A stretch of DNA of 64,000 bases from Candidatus Symbiothrix dinenymphae (GTDB taxonomy: Bacteria > Bacteroidota > Bacteroidia > Bacteroidales > Azobacteroidaceae), in the NCBI GenBank assembly GCA_001417715.1, contig BBRT01000208.1, positions 1-64,000 of the forward strand, given 5' to 3'. How positions within the stretch are numbered: the first letter of the stretch is position 1; the number at the start of each line of letters is the position of its first letter. The position numbers and the translations under genes were made by a program. The notes under the pieces were generated by a model. The model was not told the DNA's origin. It did no database searches and saw only the letters and a list, made by a program, of their open reading frames with translations. Below are positions 52,027 through 62,360 of this stretch, in pieces.

Positions 52027-53679
52027 CTAAAATGTTGGTTGCAAGGGTATTGTCCTGAATTGATTATTATTTTTGCTATCATCCATTTCAAATTTATCGT
52101 TGTTAGTGTCTTCAATTATCTGACCGACAGCAAGTAGCCTTTCTTTAAGCAAATTATAATCAATATCCTGTACCGGGACTTTACCCTCAATAGCCAAAGA
52201 TGCTGCAACAGCTGCAGATTGTCCTAATATCATGTAAACAGGCTCCATTCTTAGTGAAGTATATGCAGAATGAGAAGCAGAAACACAAACTGAAACCAAT
52301 AAATTTTCACAATTGCTTTTCTGTGGGGTAATTATTCCATAGTCTAATTGATACGCCTTAGGCGGACTCTTAATGGTTGCACCTTCCGCCCTTACAAATC
52401 CGTCTTTTCCAATACAATACTGAACAGGGTGTGAATCAATGTTATAGGAGGCAAGACCAATAGGCTTTTTAACAGATTGCTTTTGAAATATCTCGTTTTC
52501 TGTAACGACACAGTCACTTACCATTCTGCGACTTTCTCGTATGTACAACTGCGGCGACCAATTATTATTTTCGACAAACTCATCTTTTGCCAATCCCCAA
52601 ATTTTGTAAAAATCACGTACTGCCAAAGGTATTCGTGGATGATTTTGCACTGTCCAAACGAAACCCTTTTGGTAATTTTCATGGGCTTTCCTGATATTTT
52701 CTCTTGTTTCATAATTTGCCTCGGGATAGTTCCAACTGGCTCCAACATAATTTGTAGAAATACCACCCCCCATATTGGAATCGGTTTTTTTATTTTGAAT
52801 GGGTGTGAGTTGAAAACATTGTCCTCTAAAGCCTTTTTCAAATGCCCGAAATAGAAGTTCATACTCCATTTCATTATAGTTTGCCGGCTTCTCTACCATC
52901 ACTCTATTTTGGGGGTCATCAGTCATGCACATTCGATAGCAATAAGCCATTACTTTTGAATCGCCATCGCCAAAGTTTCCGCCAATATCAGGATTTACCC
53001 ATGGAAGAAGACCACCGGCTGGATTCCCTTTTTCAATGTATGGGTCTATTCCGGTCGGAACGTTAAGGTGGTACTGTCTTTCAACAATGCCGTTAAATGT
53101 TTCTCCATATTTAGAATTAGGCTCTCTACCTACAGTGTAATTAACTCCGGCAAGAGCCATTAAATCACCTTCATACGTGGCATCAATGAAAATTTTTCCT
53201 TCAAAAGTTTTTCCGGATTCCATCTTAATGGTGTGTATTTTATTTCCTTTTTTGACGACTCCTCTGTCAAGCGCAATTCTTTCATCATAAATAACTGTGA
53301 TACGCTGCTCTTTTATCATTTCATGATACACTTTCAGTGCTACTTTCGGTTCAAAGCGCCAGGCAGGACCGTCATAATTATATTCTTTCCCTACGCGATT
53401 ATAAAAATCCAAAGCCAGTCCTCCGATGGAACTTTTTTTGCCATGGTCTGTCATGCTCAATCCTCCCGTAGTCAGACCACCAAGCAGACCGCCTTGTTGA
53501 GCGGATGGCTCTATCATTACAACACTTCTCCCATCTTTTGAGGCTTGAACGGCTGATATGATTCCTGAAGATGTTCCCCCATAAATCACCACATCATATT
53601 TTTTTGCCATACAGAGAGTGGGCGATGAAATAAGTATAATAAACAGTATATTGATTTTTATTTTCTTACAGATTTTCAT
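52027..53679 (-). CDS. Secreted FAD-dependent oxidoreductase (FAD_oxidored family)
   Basis: A 550-residue protein. The ATG at 53679 gives a signal peptide (MKICKKIKINILFIILISS, cleavage near CMA-KK); a longer frame from 53748 has a poor start. The dinucleotide-binding motif is VVIYGGTSSGIISAVQAS (about 29-46), followed by GGLLGGLTTGG and SSIGGLALDFY. The C-terminal FAD contact region includes YTSLRMEPVYMILGQSAA. This family is frequent in polysaccharide operons, where it may oxidise released sugars or their derivatives in the periplasm; the substrate is unknown. It is last in the second Sus operon, 87 nt after the DUF4998 gene. Confidence 0.85.
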   Translation of the reverse strand: MKICKKIKINILFIILISSPTLCMAKKYDVVIYGGTSSGIISAVQASKDGRSVVMIEPSAQQGGLLGGLTTGGLSMTDHGKKSSIGGLALDFYNRVGKEYNYDGPAWRFEPKVALKVYHEMIKEQRITVIYDERIALDRGVVKKGNKIHTIKMESGKTFEGKIFIDATYEGDLMALAGVNYTVGREPNSKYGETFNGIVERQYHLNVPTGIDPYIEKGNPAGGLLPWVNPDIGGNFGDGDSKVMAYCYRMCMTDDPQNRVMVEKPANYNEMEYELLFRAFEKGFRGQCFQLTPIQNKKTDSNMGGGISTNYVGASWNYPEANYETRENIRKAHENYQKGFVWTVQNHPRIPLAVRDFYKIWGLAKDEFVENNNWSPQLYIRESRRMVSDCVVTENEIFQKQSVKKPIGLASYNIDSHPVQYCIGKDGFVRAEGATIKSPPKAYQLDYGIITPQKSNCENLLVSVCVSASHSAYTSLRMEPVYMILGQSAAVAASLAIEGKVPVQDIDYNLLKERLLAVGQIIEDTNNDKFEMDDSKNNNQFRTIPLQPTF

Positions 53680-53765
53680 GTTTTTATATTTTTTTTTATG
53701 GAACTCGGAAGATGCGCATTGCCCGAAAGGACAAATACGCATCTTCACATTCCACTCATTATCAA

Positions 53766-54878
53766 TTAGTATGTGACGACATTATACACTTCGAGTTCGA
53801 ACAGTCTCACTTCATTGTAAACTACAAAGCGCACTTTAGTGGCGGCAACAGGTGCAAAATCGCCGCCATAAGTCGGGTCGGCATTGCCTGTGACAGAATG
53901 TACTGTTTCCCAAGTGCCTGCAATCAATGCCTGTAACTCGAAACGGCCGATAGGATAGCCATAGCCATTGGCTCCTCCGGCTCCATTCCACATTTTGAAC
54001 CTGCTGATGGTGTATTCCCCTTGCAGGTCTATTTCCATGGTTTGCGGAAATCCTCCGGTTGTGGATACCCATCTGCGGTTATTGACAAAGTCATCACGAT
54101 CTCCGTCCACCGCATTTGCCGGCTGGGCTGCAGCAGCAGCGCTGTTGGTATGAGTTGCCGTTACCGGTTTGCCCAGCGCAACATTGGTTAGTTTAACGAT
54201 ACCTATGCCGGCGATATTGGTACAGAAGGAATCAATGGCAGTCGGCGTCGGTTTGTACCATGTCCGATAGCGAACACCCTGGGTGTAGTCCACAGCCAAT
54301 AAGGAAATGGATGTTCCCGCTTGCGGATAATAGTCCGTCACCTCCGTACCGTCCATTTTCGTATAAAACAGTTCGATACCGATTTCTTCACCCGAAGAGG
54401 CACCTGCCAGTATGATGTCCACATCTTCTCCATTGACGGCGGGAATGGTTTCCACAATTCGCCTGTTGAGCAATTGCTCCTTATACCGACTGCCATAGAT
54501 GTTCGCAGGCAATTCGAACTTCATGGATTTATTGTCGTGAAGGTCAGATGAAACGAGATGGAACGTATAATTACCTTCCGTCAGTCCATCCGTTGCGTCA
54601 AACGTCGCTTCCAGCGCTTCTTCGGACGAATGTTGCGCTACTGACAATACTTTGGAAATCCCATCATTGAAACCCCAATAGACCGTCACGTTTTTTGCAC
54701 GCGGGTCGCTGAGCCAATACTTCAGCAGTAGCCTTCCGTCTCCGGGAAAGACTGTTGCCGAATCTACTTTTCCGATGTAAACGGTCTCGCCTCTGGCAAG
54801 AAATTCATCGTGCTTATCGTTCATCTCGGCACAACCGACCAAGAAAATGATACAAATCAAAAAAACTAAATTTTTCAT
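53766..54878 (-). CDS. DUF4998 and F5/8C-domain lipoprotein
   Basis: A 370-residue lipoprotein (lipobox FLVGC, Cys about 16). The N-terminal domain (about 25-220) is of the DUF4998 type, with FLARGETVYIGKVDS and VTVYWGFNDGISK. A discoidin/F5-8C carbohydrate-binding domain (about 230-365) follows, with ANAVDGDRDDF and TMEIDLQGEYTISRFKMW. It probably contributes to substrate binding at the cell surface with the SusCD pair. It is 22 nt downstream of the DUF4959-type gene in the same operon. Confidence 0.8.
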   Translation of the reverse strand: MKNLVFLICIIFLVGCAEMNDKHDEFLARGETVYIGKVDSATVFPGDGRLLLKYWLSDPRAKNVTVYWGFNDGISKVLSVAQHSSEEALEATFDATDGLTEGNYTFHLVSSDLHDNKSMKFELPANIYGSRYKEQLLNRRIVETIPAVNGEDVDIILAGASSGEEIGIELFYTKMDGTEVTDYYPQAGTSISLLAVDYTQGVRYRTWYKPTPTAIDSFCTNIAGIGIVKLTNVALGKPVTATHTNSAAAAAQPANAVDGDRDDFVNNRRWVSTTGGFPQTMEIDLQGEYTISRFKMWNGAGGANGYGYPIGRFELQALIAGTWETVHSVTGNADPTYGGDFAPVAATKVRFVVYNEVRLFELEVYNVVTY

Positions 54879-54900: not shown

Positions 54901-56121
54901 TTACTCTGCTATTGGTTCGCCCCAAAAATGTAATTCGGCCACATGCAAACCGTTGGTTCCGCCCCAAGTGCTTCTTACTCTGAAGCGAATATAACGCACA
55001 GCCGGCTCGTCGCCTGTAAATTCAAATTCTTCTCCTGCCTTCGCATAAGCATAATCATCATCCCCTTCCTCTGGAATCACCGTGGCGTCCGATCCCGACG
55101 GACGGTGCGAAATACAGTTAATCAGCGGTCCGCCCCAGTCTGCGTCTGTGCTTGCCGAATTTTGTGCCACCGACACATCATTGGTACCCATCAGATAAAA
55201 ATCATACGCATTGTGCAACCGGAAATAAAAATCCGCCCTGCCCCAGAATTTAAATCGGGACAATTTCACTTTAACACCTAAATCCAACGTAAAATACGCA
55301 CTGATACCTTCGGTAGGGCGGATGTAATACACTTGGTAGGCTACAGGTGCAAACGTGACGTCATCCCATATCACATCCAAGGTCGTACTACTCCATCCAG
55401 AATACAACACGAATGCCGGTAACTTGGGCATTTCTCTAAAATTCTTATTGTCAATTCTCTGTTCGTACAAAGGCTCAAGTGGGAACTCCAGCGTATCGGT
55501 GTAATTATTGTAGGTATCTCTGGCAAATACGGCAAAGGTAGTTGGTACGGCTTCCTGTCCGCGAATTGTCCTCTGCGCATTTTTTTCGGAAGTGTAAAAG
55601 GTTTCTATCTGTTCGTAAACACCTGCTTGATTCTTCTTTAAAAATGTAACCCTGGCTTCTTCCTGCAAGGCATTTTCCCATTTCACTTTAAATCCGCCTC
55701 GCGCTATTTCGTAATCCAGACTATTGATAAGGTCAAAAATGAAGGCGTCGTCAGGATGAATGGTAACTTCAACCGGCGTGGATTCATTCTGACTTCGGTC
55801 AACGGTAACTAACTGCAATTTGTATTCCTGAGAGCGGGCAAATCCTTTTACCGTAAGGGCATTGGAAAAAGACGACACTTTGATGTCCTGCTTTTGCCCG
55901 CTCGGCAGGGTAAACTGCGCCCGAACATACAAGAGGTCTACTTCGTCCGGCAGGTCATAAGTAATCGTGGCACCGCCGGAAAAATTGCTTACTCGCGGAT
56001 TGCTTATCGGCTGCGGTGGCGTGCTATCAATCGAATATTGTCCGATAGGGTCTTCTGAACAAGCCGAAAACAGAAGACAGCAACTACATACTGCAAAAAT
56101 TGAATTTTTAATACTTTTCAT
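54901..56121 (-). CDS. DUF4959/DUF5126/DUF5000-type lipoprotein
   Basis: A 406-residue lipoprotein (lipobox LLFSAC, Cys about 20). The order of domains fits the known trio: DUF4959 (about 25-120, PPQPISNPRVSNFSGGATITY), DUF5126 (about 125-230) and the F5/8C-like DUF5000 at the C-terminus (about 235-405, ending HVAELHFWGEP). Proteins of this kind follow susD and are regarded as accessory surface glycan-binding proteins. It lies 29 nt after the SusD gene. Domain borders are estimated by eye. Confidence 0.8.
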   Translation of the reverse strand: MKSIKNSIFAVCSCCLLFSACSEDPIGQYSIDSTPPQPISNPRVSNFSGGATITYDLPDEVDLLYVRAQFTLPSGQKQDIKVSSFSNALTVKGFARSQEYKLQLVTVDRSQNESTPVEVTIHPDDAFIFDLINSLDYEIARGGFKVKWENALQEEARVTFLKKNQAGVYEQIETFYTSEKNAQRTIRGQEAVPTTFAVFARDTYNNYTDTLEFPLEPLYEQRIDNKNFREMPKLPAFVLYSGWSSTTLDVIWDDVTFAPVAYQVYYIRPTEGISAYFTLDLGVKVKLSRFKFWGRADFYFRLHNAYDFYLMGTNDVSVAQNSASTDADWGGPLINCISHRPSGSDATVIPEEGDDDYAYAKAGEEFEFTGDEPAVRYIRFRVRSTWGGTNGLHVAELHFWGEPIAE

Positions 56122-56150: not shown

Positions 56151-58100
56151 TTACCATCCCGGATTTTGTACCAGATTGGGGTTTTTCAACAATTCTCCTT
56201 GCCTAATTGGCCACAGATACTCCTTTTTGGTGAAACTCAACGGACTTAACGTAATTACATTGTAATAATCTTCCGGAGTTTCGCCCATAATATTCCAGCC
56301 TCTGATGGGTTTGTTCAGTTCCGTTTCGGCAATCAGCCACCGACGGACATCCCAGAAGCGTTTCCCTTCAAAAGCGAGTTCAATCATGCGTTCCTGCCGG
56401 ATGATGTCGCGCATACCTGTTTTCGAGGCGGGCTTATCGGTAACAGTCGAATATGTCGCCCAACTTTCCACCACGCCTTTCAAACCGGCTCTTGTTCTGA
56501 TTAAATCTACATAATCATACACTTCCTGATTTGGCGCGTCCAAATATTCGTTCAGCGCTTCAGCATACAGCAAATACAAGTCTGCCAACCGCATAATGGG
56601 GAAAGAGGCTGATTGTGTAGTCAATCTCGTACCTCCCGCATCGACCTGAGTTTCGATATGCGTCCCTTTTTTGAGCAAATATCCGGTGATGGAAAACCTT
56701 AATCCCGAATAATTGCCGGAATAATTGCCCTTCAACATACGGGTTACCCAAGCGGCCTGGGCTGCCGGAGTCTGGTTGAAATCCAATTGCCTTCCGTTAC
56801 CTATCCAATAACCGCCGTCAAAACCCAGATTGGCATAAAACCTTGGCTCGCGGTTCATGTTGATTTTGGCAATCTTGTAATTACCATCCACAAGCATATA
56901 GTATTGCTGGTCTGCCGCTGCCGGTTCGTATTTAAAACGGTTGGCAAAATCATAACTCGGGTCTTCGGTGATAGGCACTCCATTGTTGCTGTAGAATAGT
57001 TCCACCATCCGCATGGTAGGTGCAATGATAGGGTCGGATGCCGCCAAATTTGCGTGGCTCTGTAAAAAATGCGGCAAAGTGCGTTGTGTAAGATTAGCAG
57101 GATTATCCTTTCCCCAAATGATTTCACGGTTCCATTTGTCCGTAACCACTGTTCGCAAGGTCATTACCAACTTGCTGGTGTCTGAAAGTCCCGAATAGGC
57201 CGAATAAAATCCGGATTGGCTGAAATCGTACAATCCGTACTCGGCTAACTCTACCGTGTCAATGGCATTTTTGCAGGCTGTTTTTGCCCGTTCCCACTTG
57301 TCCTTGCTGCTGAGTTTGCTTTCAAAAAGTTTGGTTCCCCTGTTGTCCACCATTCCTGACAGGTCGGGGTTGTTGTTGAACAAGGGGCTTGCTGCCGTAA
57401 CCAACAATTCTGCCTTAATAGACAGGGCGATGGGTTGTGTAATCCTCCGCAATTCGCTGGCAGTATTGTAGATGACCAAGGGAAGGTCGGGAACGGCCTC
57501 GTCGAGCAATTGCACGATATAGTCCACGCAGTCGTCAAATTTATCGCGATATGCCCTCGATTCGGAAATATCTGCATCAATAGGCAAGTTTGCCCTGATT
57601 AGAGGTATCGGACCGTATTGTTTCAACAGATAATAATGGTAATAGGCTTTCAAAAACTTCACTTCGGCTACCCATCGCACCTTTTCATCCGGTTTCAAAT
57701 CGGGACCTACTTTATCAATGTTATCAAGGAAGATATTGCAATCTCTAATTCCCTTGAACAATCCTCGTCCCTGATTCAGTGCTTCCCAGTTATTCACATA
57801 AGGCGAATTGCTGTTCTGATCGATTTTGATAGAGAAACAATTGTAGTTTCCCATCCATTCATTCTCTAATGCATTACCTCTAAACGCCCATGTATCATCG
57901 CCGCCCATAATGCCCGGGTCATAGCGAGGGTTGCCTATATCGGGCAAGAAAGAATAGCAGGAGGCAAGATAAGACTCAGCGCCTGTTCTGTCGCGAAAAG
58001 CATAATCAATAGTCGCTATGTTGTCCGGCACAATGTCCAAATAACTGTCGCATGAACAACAAAAAATCATAAAAAATAAAGAATATACTAACTTTTTCAT
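56151..58100 (-). CDS. SusD/RagB-family lipoprotein of the second operon
   Basis: A 649-residue SusD homologue with lipobox FCCSC (Cys about 17) and the early SusD segment YLASCYSFLPDIGNP. The C-terminal signature is IRQERMIELAFEGKRFWDVRRW (in the sequence, one residue longer than usual spacing; about 585-606), followed by the usual LWPIRQGELLKNPNLVQNPGW end region. It starts 11 nt after the SusC stop. If SusC is switched out of frame, this protein would depend on read-through transcription of the same message, and polarity could lower it as well. Confidence 0.95.
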   Translation of the reverse strand: MKKLVYSLFFMIFCCSCDSYLDIVPDNIATIDYAFRDRTGAESYLASCYSFLPDIGNPRYDPGIMGGDDTWAFRGNALENEWMGNYNCFSIKIDQNSNSPYVNNWEALNQGRGLFKGIRDCNIFLDNIDKVGPDLKPDEKVRWVAEVKFLKAYYHYYLLKQYGPIPLIRANLPIDADISESRAYRDKFDDCVDYIVQLLDEAVPDLPLVIYNTASELRRITQPIALSIKAELLVTAASPLFNNNPDLSGMVDNRGTKLFESKLSSKDKWERAKTACKNAIDTVELAEYGLYDFSQSGFYSAYSGLSDTSKLVMTLRTVVTDKWNREIIWGKDNPANLTQRTLPHFLQSHANLAASDPIIAPTMRMVELFYSNNGVPITEDPSYDFANRFKYEPAAADQQYYMLVDGNYKIAKINMNREPRFYANLGFDGGYWIGNGRQLDFNQTPAAQAAWVTRMLKGNYSGNYSGLRFSITGYLLKKGTHIETQVDAGGTRLTTQSASFPIMRLADLYLLYAEALNEYLDAPNQEVYDYVDLIRTRAGLKGVVESWATYSTVTDKPASKTGMRDIIRQERMIELAFEGKRFWDVRRWLIAETELNKPIRGWNIMGETPEDYYNVITLSPLSFTKKEYLWPIRQGELLKNPNLVQNPGW

Positions 58101-58111
58101 ATTATGTAATT

Positions 58112-61100
58112 TTAAAAAGTGAATTGTAAACCTAAATTATAAACTCTTTGCAGCGGGTATCCCAAGCCATTACCCCCCATTTCCGGATCCCACAGTTTAA
58201 AGGGACTGAAAGTAAGCAAGTTGGTGCCACTGATATAAACGCGGAAGGCTCGCATCTTGATTTTATTGGTCACACGTTCCGGGACAGTGTATCCCAGTTC
58301 GGCTGATTTCAGACGCAGAAAAGAGCCATTCCGCATAAACCAAGTACTGGTTTGTGTGTTGTTATTGACTATCTGGTCGGAAAGTCGTGGCCACAGTGCA
58401 TACAGATTTCTATCGTCTTCCGCCCAGTGATTGTCGGCATAAGCCTGCAACAACGCATTCTTGGAAAGGATACTTGCGTTGCCGTCTGTATCCACAAAAG
58501 GCGAGGTTGTTGCCGCGTCAATCCAGAAAGAACGCTGTCCCAGCCCTTGGAAGAAAAACGAAAGGTCAATTCCCTTGTATCCTGCCGATAAACCGAACCC
58601 ATATATGATTTGCGGCTCGGTGGGGAATCCGATGGGGACTTTGTCCAAGTCTGTAATTTGACCATCGCCATCAATGTCTTTGTACTTGATGTCGCCGCCC
58701 CTAATGCTTCTGGTATCGTTGAAATTTTGAGCGGGTGAGTTGCGTACTTCGGCATCGTCAACGAACAACCGCTCTGCCACATACCCGAACTTCTGCGATA
58801 GGGGTTGCCCAATCATTGACCTCCAAGGGGTAGTGGAATAACTGATTTCTTCATATTCGGTATATTTGGTGGTGGCATACGTGAAATTCATCCTTCCTGT
58901 AACCCATAAATCCTTATTGAAACTGTGCTGATAATCAGCAGAAAAATCTATACCGCTTCCTTTTGCTTTGCCGAGGTTGGCTTGAGGCGTCACATTCAAT
59001 CCCATGGTGGCTGGCACATACGCTCTTTCAAGCAATATTCCCGACCTGTCTTCGGTATAGTAATCAAGAATAAAGTCTAATTTGCCAAACAGGTTCATTT
59101 CAACGCCCAGATTCATTTTCCGTGCAGTTTCCCATGTAATCATTTCATTGGCATATCTGTCAACAGATACGCCATATTGCGTCTGATTGAAATCATATCC
59201 ATAAGAATAAGACCTTCCCGATTCTGTCCCCATCAGCACTTTCGACAAATAAAAGAATCGGTCGTCTGCATTTCCGATGGCATCGTTACCAACCAATCCG
59301 TAAGTGCCTTTGAATTTCAGTTTCGGCATAATCCCGTTAAGCCCCAAACTTTCCGACCAGAAATTCTCATTGGATACCACCCAACCGACTCCGATGGAAG
59401 GGAAAAAACCGAAACGCTCATTCTTGGCAAACCGTTCCGAGCCATTGTATCCAAAGTTAAACTCTGTGAAATAGCGGCTATCGAAAGCATAAGTCGCTCT
59501 GCCCGAAACGCCTATATTCCGGTGAGGCAACGATAATTCGAAAGTCGTAGCGTTGGCTTCCGAATAATTCCGCATGGTAAATACCATCAACCCGCTGACA
59601 GCATGCTTATCGGCAAATGTACGGTCGTAGATTGCCGCCGCTTCGGTGTAATTGGTGGTCTTGATTTCTCTGGGGTCTTCTGAAAATCTCAACCATTCTT
59701 CGGCAAGTCCCGTCCCATTGTTCAGCCATTGCAGTGTGTATGTGTCTGTTGGCTTTTCGTAGGAAGCAATATTATAATAGTACGGTTTATACTGCCTCTT
59801 TGTAGAGTGGAACGAATAGCGGGTGGTTGAATACAATGCCCTGACAGACAGCCCGGAAGTTATAAAATCCAGGTTCTGTTTTAACTCAAACTGAGCCATC
59901 ATCTGGGATTTGTTATAATCCCTGTATCCTTTCACCATATCGGCATACGGGTTGATATAATTGGCTGTTCCGGCATTTCCAAATAAAATATGGTGCGCGT
60001 AAGCGTTTGCTTCGTCCGGTGCATACTTGGGGGCAAACAACACAGGGTCTGACATAATTATTTTCTTGTACAGCGCATCACCTCCATCCAAAGGACCCTG
60101 ATAATCGTCAAAAGAACCTGACAAACGCACGATAGCTTCTGTGCTTGGGGTCAGATTGATATTGACATTCGACCGCAACTGGTATTTTTTCAGGTCAATG
60201 TTGTTGTTAAAGTTGTTCTGCCTGTCCATTTTCAGATTTCCATTGTCCTGATTGTAGGTAGCCGCCACATAGTATCGGGCTATCTTACCGCCACCACTCA
60301 CATTCAGGTTAGCACGGTAGTTAATGGTTTGGTCGTTCATTAGCATGTTGTACCAGTCATTGGCAGGATACACATATTGATTCCTGTTCGGATCCATGGT
60401 GTTGTCAATCTTTTCCTGCGAGTAGGGTATGGTGCCTCTTGGATCTCTGGTCAACACTGCCTCGTTGTTCAATTGCATGTAAGTAATCGGGTCGGCAAAC
60501 CTCACTTTATAAGTCGGTTCGGATATGGAAGTCTCTGCTCTGAAAGACACGGTAGTTGCGCCTTCCTTTCCTTCCTTGGTGGTAATCAGGATGACGCCAT
60601 TGGCTCCGCGAGCACCATACAAAGCCGTTGCCGTAGCATCTTTCATGATGGAGAAACTGGCAATATCATCGGGCTGCATCCGCGAAAGGTCTGCCGATGA
60701 CATTTCTACTCCGTCAATCAGGATAAGCGGTCCACTGGCGTATGTGAGCGAGGTAACGCCGCGCACAAAGAAGCTGGCGTCGTCCTGCCCGGGTTCACCA
60801 CTACTCTGGTAGGAAATCAACCCTGACATGCGTCCTGCAAGTGCTGTGGACAAGTTGCTGCTCGGCACCTTCAAATCTTTGGTGTTGATGGTGGAAATGG
60901 AGGAAATCACACTTTCTTTCTTCTGCTTACCGAAAGCCACCACCGTCACTTCGTCCAACTCATTCGACTTGGGCTTGAGCGGAATCACAAAACTCGCCTT
61001 GTCGCCCACCGCCACAGTGTAGGTGTCATACCCCAAAAAAGAAACTTCCAAAACATCCGTCGGCGAAACGTCTATTTTGAATGAACCATCCATGTCGGTC

Positions 61101-61343
61101 ACTACTCCACGAGAGCTCCCTTTGATGGTGATGGTGGAGCCGGGGACTCCAACTCCGGTTTCATCGTAAACGAAACCGGTAACGGTCTTCGTCCGCGCCG
61201 AAGCATTTGTTGTAACCTGCGCCTCCTGCGGCGCCTCAGCACGAATGCTTTGCGCCCCCCCCCCCCAAGAGAATGCTGCTTAGAAGCAAACCTTTTGCAA
61301 AGTTTGCAAACTTCTTGTTTTTGCTTTTTTTCTTCATTTGCAT
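58112..61343 (-). CDS. SusC/RagA-family transporter, frameshifted by a 12-G tract
   Basis: A SusC-like gene of 1,076 codons when in frame. It starts at 61343 (or the in-frame ATG at 61337). The first 24 or so residues form a signal peptide start (KKKSKNKKFANFAKGLLLSS), then the codons run into 12 G at 61255-61266. With 12 G the frame shifts and stops within about ten codons. With 11 G it continues as a normal signal-peptide end (GGG-A-QSIRAEA), a CarboxypepD_reg-like domain (TVTGFVYDETGVGVPGSTI), the EVTVVAFG segment, the plug (SIMKDATATALYGARGANGV) and the barrel to the C-terminus. Nothing else in the gene is broken. This is either an OFF phase or a homopolymer error. Confidence 0.9.
61255..61266 (-). 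repeat. Poly-G tract of 12 in the SusC signal-peptide codons
   Basis: Twelve consecutive G on the minus strand (C on the plus). The codon frame upstream (ATG...CTC TTG) and the frame downstream (GCG CAA AGC...) join only if the tract has 11 G, or 8 or 14. Mononucleotide G tracts of this length slip easily and are classical ON/OFF switches. Confidence 0.95.
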
Positions 61344-61405
61344 AAAATTAAATTTTTAATGTTTAACAATTTTTTTTGTGAATTGCCACTATGACAATTC
61401 GGCAG
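61343..61405 (-). promoter_or_regulatory. Leader and dyad of the second Sus operon
   Basis: Right after the -7 box the minus strand reads GAATTGTCA-TAG-TGGCAATTC (an imperfect 21-nt palindrome), then an A-rich tract, TTGTTAAACATT and an AT-rich run to the ATG. The same order and almost the same bases stand before the first Sus operon (12,407-12,467). Confidence 0.7.
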
Positions 61406-61435
61406 CAAAGGTAAAGAATGTTTTTGAATTGACAA
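61406..61435 (-). promoter_or_regulatory. Promoter of the second Sus operon
   Basis: Minus strand: TTG (61433-61435), 19-nt spacer, TACCTTTG (61406-61413). The spacer differs from that at 12,377-12,406 at only a couple of positions. Confidence 0.8.
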
Positions 61436-61496
61436 TGGATTTTGAAAAGTTTAACCTTTTTTATTTAATTTTCGTTGATGTTAACCAAGTTTTTGC

Positions 61497-61524
61497 CATT
61501 GCGGGCTTGACCCGCAATCCCATG
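61497..61524. repeat. CATTGCGGGCTTGACCCGCAAT repeat copy
   Basis: A further copy of the dispersed palindrome at 12,168-12,322, lying between the second Sus operon promoter and the HEPN/MNT pair. No gene is seen between 61,436 and 61,650. Confidence 0.75.
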
Positions 61525-61618
61525 CAAAGGAGTCGAATGTTGGGATATCTTCGCCTATTGGATTGGGGAGAAACAGGTAAAGAGGTAAGATACACATCAT
61601 CCATATTAAATTTTTTTG

Positions 61619-61650: not shown

Positions 61651-62055
61651 ATGGATAAAGAACCCATCATTAACGCCGACGAGATTGTGAAGCATTGGAT
61701 AGACACATCTGATGCGGACTTTGAGGTCATGCTCACGCTACTTGAAACAAAGCAGAATAGTTGGGCATTATTTCTCGGTCATCTCGTGCTTGAAAAACTA
61801 TTGAAGGCATATTATGTGAAGCAGCACGGCACGCACGCACCGCTTTGGCACGACCTTGTACAGATTGCGCAGCGTGGAGGATTTGTCCTCACAGCCGAAC
61901 AGGTTAGATGTTTGGATATAATTACCCAATTCAATCTCAATGCGCGTTATGACGACTATAAGCGTAATTTCTATACACAATGCACTGCCGAATATACGGC
62001 AGAGTGGTCGGAAAAAATTAAACAACTACGAATATGGATAAAGGAGAGGCTATAA
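61651..62055 (+). CDS. HEPN-domain protein (toxin side of HEPN/MNT pair)
   Basis: A 134-residue, all-helical HEPN protein of the PF05168 type, with VLEKLLKAYYVKQHGTHAP (about 49-67) and LWHDLVQIAQ (about 68-77). In HEPN/MNT systems the HEPN protein is a toxin, often an RNase, that the MNT partner silences by nucleotidylation. The classical R-x4-6-H catalytic motif is not visible here; the C-terminal NARYDDYKRNF stands in the usual place. The partner gene starts 22 nt before this stop, so translation is coupled. Confidence 0.85.
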   Translation: MDKEPIINADEIVKHWIDTSDADFEVMLTLLETKQNSWALFLGHLVLEKLLKAYYVKQHGTHAPLWHDLVQIAQRGGFVLTAEQVRCLDIITQFNLNARYDDYKRNFYTQCTAEYTAEWSEKIKQLRIWIKERL

Positions 62056-62360
62056 TAGATAAAAGAGGGGCTATAAATGTTGCGCGGCAATATGCACAGG
62101 CAGTGAGAACGCATTATGGGTCAGGCAGAGTCTTTTTGTTTGGCTCGTATGCCAAGGGCAACTACCACGAGGACAGCGACATTGACCTTGCCGTTATCTT
62201 TGGCGACTACGAAAACGGCTTTGACCGCGAAACGGAACTTATGCATTTGCGTCACGAAATTGATATTCGCATTGAGCCGCACGCATTCCGCGAAAGCGAA
62301 TTTACACCACAAGACCCGCTCGCATACGAGGTTTTGAAGTATGGGCGCGAGATAACTTAA
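62034..62360 (+). CDS. MNT-type minimal nucleotidyltransferase (antitoxin side)
   Basis: A 108-residue nucleotidyltransferase with the full motif FLFGSYAKGNYHEDSDIDLAV (GSxxxG and D-x-D; about 37-57, split here only by length) and the third acidic position in HEIDIRIEP (about 80). MNT proteins add nucleotides to their HEPN partner and so neutralise it. The catalytic residues are all present, unlike in the AbiEii gene at 11,100. Its stop lies 4 nt from the stop of the convergent ruvC. Confidence 0.9.
   Translation: MDKGEAIIDKRGAINVARQYAQAVRTHYGSGRVFLFGSYAKGNYHEDSDIDLAVIFGDYENGFDRETELMHLRHEIDIRIEPHAFRESEFTPQDPLAYEVLKYGREIT

Follow-up and report, generated by a model that had tools for sequence, protein, structure and literature searches.

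A G tract in SusC leaders as a probable multi-locus ON/OFF switch of SusCD operons in a probable Bacteroidales symbiont

A run of G's lies in the signal-peptide codons of a SusC transporter gene in the window, the 64,000-nt stretch of DNA analyzed here. This raises the question of whether the gene is switched ON and OFF by changes in the length of the run, as an earlier note had proposed from this one gene. We confirmed that the minus (coding) strand carries exactly 12 G at this position (12 C on the plus strand) and found that all other G or C runs of the window are shorter than 10. Under a first-order Markov model, 0.005 runs of at least 12 would be expected per 64 kb. GGG makes up only 12% of the Gly codons in the window and in SusC bodies, and we found no G or C run above 6 in SusC bodies.

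We then read the frames on both sides of the tract. Two ATG codons precede it, by 77 and 71 nt, and the long frame continues for 3,140 nt past it to the stop. As the earlier note had stated, both sides are open and the leader joins the SusC frame at 8, 11, or 14 G. The length from the SusC ATG to the stop also came out as given there, at 3,232 nt (77 + 12 + 3,140 + 3), a multiple of three plus one. With 12 G, the frame that starts at the SusC ATG ends 16 nt 3′ of the tract, and no ATG that opens the SusC frame was found upstream of the tract at this locus. As assembled, the SusC gene of the window is OFF. Its TIGR04056 match is full length (profile positions 1 to 981 of 981, 967 bits versus a cutoff of 368). 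The features of the locus are collected in Table 1. Directly upstream of the SusC operon, at 61651 to 62360, lies a HEPN/nucleotidyltransferase (MNT) gene pair, which is probably a toxin-antitoxin pair.

Table 1. Features of the SusC locus in the window and loci of the second class of G tracts.
Feature	Position or locus	Strand	Remarks
G12 tract in signal-peptide codons	61255..61266	-	Assembled OFF; in frame with 8, 11, or 14 G
SusC leader 5′ of tract, MQMKKKSKNKKFANFAKGLLLSSIL	61267..61343	-	ATG at 61343, second ATG at 61337; aligned to 18 more cassettes from this genome
SusC/RagA body, open to stop	58112..61254	-	TIGR04056, 967 bits; Plug and CarboxypepD_reg domains
SusD partner	56151..58100	-	SusD_RagB, 203 bits; SusD-like_3; adjoins susC
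DUF4959/DUF5126/DUF5000 protein of operon	54901..56121	-	
DUF4998 and F5/8 type C protein of operon	53766..54878	-	
FAD-dependent oxidoreductase (FAD_oxidored)	52027..53748	-	Last gene of putative operon
Shared promoter/5′ UTR/leader cassette	61267..61520	-	Interoperon homology begins about here; flanks beyond unrelated
TACCTTTG	61406..61413	-	Match to Bacteroidales -7 element TAnnTTTG; conserved in cassettes
CATTGTC, probable -33 element	61431..61437	-	17 nt upstream of TACCTTTG; conserved
Second-class (intergenic) G tracts	L044, L045, L048, L050, L059, L078, L091 (G000); L273-L289 (G005); L295-L308 (G008); L261-L265 (G036)		

The window comes from a draft assembly of 3.52 Mb in 346 contigs that is 91% complete (G000). 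We counted 62 tracts of at least 10 G in this genome, compared to about 5 estimated by a first-order model from the composition of the window. We searched 295 Bacteroidales genomes and found that those outside the genus had 0 to 18 such tracts per genome, with only one genome above 9. About a third of the G000 tracts have an ATG 71 to 80 nt 5′ and are followed by an open SusC frame of approximately 3.1 kb. By profile search, we found about 30 long SusC matches in G000, about 24 of them with a visible 5′ end. In at least 18 of these 24 or so genes, the tract lies at the same leader codons (in one it is interrupted); about 0.06 tracts in SusC leaders would be expected by position alone. The leader pattern around the tract is LLLSSIL-[G]n-AQSIRAEAPQ and variants of it, and the G runs that head about 20 SusCD operons of G000 are 11 to 18 G long. 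These approximately 20 loci do not count as independent events, since the cassette has a shared ancestry and recombines.

The SusC gene L181 (G000:C327:2110-5154) carries an interrupted tract, G8-A-G3 (GGGGGGGGAGGG), and is out of frame; either the allele is locked in the OFF state or a base may have been miscalled. L111 (BNTT01, MS499-65) belongs to the same leader family and has ordinary codons in place of the tract (LLLSSVFFVLEGQSLRADAPQ), which would make it a natural allele without the switch.

The similarity between loci extends upstream of the leader. About 250 nt could be aligned across 19 upstream regions, comprising CATTGTC, a 17-nt spacer, TACCTTTG, a conserved 5′ UTR, and the leader. 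Bacteroidales promoters have a -33/-7 architecture, with TAnnTTTG as the -7 consensus. CATTGTC and TACCTTTG fit this architecture, a promoter predicted by resemblance rather than from a mapped start site. The SusC promoter of the window lies between two AT-rich 24-nt stretches, 61344 to 61367 and 61449 to 61472, that form an imperfect inverted repeat (75% complementary). We found no second orientation of the promoter, which is oriented alike in 19 of the 19 aligned cassettes. The repeat is therefore probably due to chance, and with a repeat this weak and a single orientation, we rejected phase variation by an invertible promoter at the window. A CATTGCGGGCTTGACCCGCAATCCC palindrome lies at about 61499 to 61525 and has dozens of matches in G031, G008, G006, and G012. 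It appears to be a REP-like repeat that is common just upstream of the cassettes.

The tract is not confined to SusC genes. In L051 and L058 of G000 and in L246 of a second genome of the same genus, the record "Bacteroidia bacterium MS499-82" (BNTU01; G031), the tract-bearing cassette heads an IPT/TIG-domain lipoprotein gene. These lipoproteins have their own lipoprotein signal further in. The mean hydropathy of their leader cores is -0.19, -0.19, and 0.83, respectively, compared to about 1.5 to 1.7 in SusC leaders, and all three genes retain the ATG and 12 to 13 G despite the decayed core. The SusC gene directly downstream of the TIG lipoprotein gene has an ordinary signal peptide without a tract. 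Since the leader core has decayed while the G's persist, the tract outlives the signal peptide. This suggests that what these operons retain is a G tract in their first gene rather than the leader peptide. One SusC gene behind a tract-bearing TIG lipoprotein gene, L173 (G000:C50:8181-11192), has an internal TAG near its N terminus.

We propose that SusCD operons are switched at the level of translation, at many loci, by slipped-strand changes in the tract, a reading that we consider highly probable. According to this model, about 20 SusCD operons start with one module made up of a promoter, a 5′ UTR, a signal-peptide leader, and 11 to 18 G, with the G run placed at the boundary of the h and c regions of the signal peptide. 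Slippage of the polymerase in the G run would alter its length in vivo by one or more bases. With one length class in three, the leader would join the SusC frame and the transporter would be made with extra glycines in its signal peptide (ON); these glycines would lie ahead of an IRA/EAP-like cleavage site and should be tolerated. With the other two classes, translation would stop 16 or about 150 nt 3′ of the tract (OFF). OFF cells would lose the SusC protein, perhaps with polar effects on susD and the downstream genes. If the operons switch independently, the result would be a combinatorial repertoire of outer membrane transporters with very many surface states, from which the cells may benefit.

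The cassette could instead be mainly a recombination joint that moves SusCD operon bodies between expression sites, with length variation as a side effect. In orthologous operon pairs between genomes, we found that homology begins about 100 to 300 nt upstream of the tract. In the pairs examined in two genomes, it spans 9 to 10 kb at 96 to 98% identity where the sequence sufficed, between unrelated flanks. We also compared the window's site with G031, a comparison of two contigs, one of which ends inside SusC. G031 keeps the promoter side and the neighbors (93% over the ruvC-side flank) and has a different SusC N terminus with 15 G; on the other side, the same flanking genes lie beside different operon genes. 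This suggests an exchange of operon bodies among sites in which the cassette may act as the joint. A joint gives no reason for a pure G run, however, and leaves unexplained why the TIG lipoprotein operons keep their G's after the signal peptide is lost. As the main function of the cassette, we consider a joint unlikely; recombination more likely accompanies switching than replaces it. We put forward only tentatively a system of two layers in a termite-gut Bacteroidales lineage, in which independent poly-G switching of about 20 SusCD operons would be combined with exchange of operon bodies via the promoter-leader-G-tract cassette.

The draft assembly limits how tract lengths can be read. Of the 62 tracts, 16 are no more than about 200 nt away from a contig end, and the sequence next to some of them is garbled. 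Because the draft breaks at tracts, single tract lengths, including the 12 G of the window, are to be taken as plus or minus one. C312 and C286 overlap within one gene and have 16 and 15 G, respectively, a difference at error-prone contig ends that may be noise. We rejected C165 and C293 (14 and 18 G) as copies of one locus; they have only about 270 nt of cassette in common and therefore give no evidence of length polymorphism.

Assembly or amplification error might then account for the odd lengths altogether, the genes always being in frame and the tracts being homopolymer miscalls. The 346 contigs of the draft, the tracts at contig ends with garbled flanks, and the two assembled versions of one gene (15 and 16 G) are all in line with this, and amplification stutters across G tracts of 13 or more (PMC3786947). 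Against it, 11 of the 13 gradeable SusC genes of G000 and most of those in G031 have an out-of-frame tract, and tracts of 11 to 13 G in the middle of contigs show the same behavior. That the tracts are long is certain and recurs in separate assemblies, and slippage is expected at such lengths. Error as the whole explanation is thus quite unlikely.

We found that the switch-like arrangement extends to relatives. In G031, approximately 14 genes share this leader and its tract. Four more genomes of the genus (G008, G005, G006, and G025) carry tracts in SusC leaders, several of them with quite different leader sequences. We scored genes whose leader and body lie together on a single contig and found ON lengths in 2 of 13 genes in G000, 4 of 13 in G031, 5 of 12 in G008, 2 of 4 in G005, and 1 of 2 in G006 and G025 together. 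The sum, 14 of 44, is close to the one third expected under free length drift, a ratio that assembly noise would give as well. In G003, a genome of the same genus with a 1,114,206-bp contig that is probably the chromosome of Azobacteroides pseudotrichonymphae, we found 10 G tracts of 10 to 18, none of them in a SusC leader (L324 to L330). Some of the G003 tracts lie inside coding frames, e.g., L327 and L328. The organism that carries the window is itself likely a termite-gut relative of Azobacteroides.

Between species, near-identical genes differ in tract length and state: L063 has 14 G and is OFF and L234 has 13 G and is ON (99.7% amino acid identity), L088 has 14 G and is ON and L233 has 12 G and is OFF (98.4%), and L249 has 13 G and is OFF and L307 has 11 G and is ON (92%). 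Therefore, the length of the DNA tract does change. This bears on the possibility that the DNA tract is fixed and that slippage is due to RNA polymerase or to the ribosome, giving a constant in-frame fraction and lowered or spread expression. Long G runs are slippery templates in general, and slippage during expression would account for purifying selection on OFF genes. That model needs no variety of lengths, however, and the orthologues differ. We regard it as very unlikely as a replacement for DNA switching, to which it might add a layer.

Apart from one split gene, the SusC bodies of OFF genes are open for more than 1,000 codons, and their dN/dS between orthologues or close paralogues is 0.017 to 0.29; these genes are therefore not pseudogenes. 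Frameshift by decay of redundant transporters, with which the OFF state of most G000 copies and the internal TAG of the SusC gene at C50:8181-11192 would agree, is hardly credible given these open, selected bodies and orthologues that are intact and in some cases ON. We also rejected the loss of mismatch repair as the origin of the many tracts. G000, like most of the genus, has intact MutS and MutL, and therefore the tracts are not a by-product of such a loss. In G031 (C90), mutS appears split into two parts that lie in opposite orientations on a single contig, which is probably an assembly chimera.

The likely phase variation claimed in the earlier note is thus supported by the tract at the same codons of at least 18 SusC genes, by independent relatives in which it persists at ON as well as OFF lengths, by near-identical orthologues that differ in length and state, and by OFF genes that are open and under purifying selection. 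Taken together, these comparisons make a much stronger case for a translational switch governed by tract length than a single gene could make.

A second class of G tracts was observed in the genus (Table 1). These tracts of 10 to 23 G are intergenic and lie directly beside a palindrome like AACTTGCTGATAATCAGCAAGTT, often 120 to 145 nt upstream of divergent genes, among them MBOAT-like genes (MLFNSIEFGIFLP...) and genes for a repeated MNKKVF... protein. They could be promoter-located switches. In the window, a run of 9 C at 2410 to 2418 lies between genes, beside a GCATCCCGTAGGGATGC palindrome.

Poly-G genes of Campylobacter are mostly unrelated surface modification genes, whereas here one transporter family carries one shared 5′ module. 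The Campylobacter poly-G phasomes (PMC6321876) resemble the present system in their many G tracts per genome and combinatorial ON/OFF states. The closest mechanism is the switching of the TonB-dependent hemoglobin receptors hmbR and hpuA of Neisseria meningitidis, which undergo poly-G phase variation (PMC3786947). In both cases, an intragenic G tract lies in the gene for a TonB-dependent outer membrane receptor or its partner, tract lengths are similar, and one length class in three is in frame. The Neisseria system involves one or two loci, whereas approximately 20 paralogous operons lie behind a shared promoter-leader cassette here, in another phylum and another receptor family (SusC), in a system known from assembled sequence.

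In Bacteroidales, switching of SusCD and capsule loci is reviewed as DNA inversion, and that of SusC only so (PMC12632263, PMC11868660), in agreement with the earlier note, which named inversion as the main known means of SusC switching. The SusC/SusD system of Bacteroides fragilis, as cited in these reviews, varies by site-specific DNA inversion (Nakayama-Imaohji 2009, cited in PMC12632263, PMC11868660). It concerns the same protein family in the same order and likewise switches surface transporters at random. There, an invertase acts on DNA segments, whereas here a homopolymer lies in the coding sequence. Term searches of the two reviews found no homopolymer switch, and we found no relevant report of homopolymer or slipped-strand switching of SusC or in Bacteroidales in the open-license literature, an absence that is weak evidence. 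The physics of the switch is known; what is new is the gene family, the phylum context, and the unusual multiplicity with a shared cassette.

Switching of SusCD decides glycan uptake by Bacteroidales and their recognition by phages or host factors. If the proposed switch is real, short-read and inversion-finding pipelines miss a homopolymer switch common to about 20 operons, and, in genomes of this kind, an annotated frameshift in a SusC gene would often mark an OFF allele and not a pseudogene. A probable insect symbiont would also hedge its surface much like mucosal pathogens do. The two-layer system, if true, would be surface variation on a Neisseria-like scale in a mutualist instead of a pathogen.
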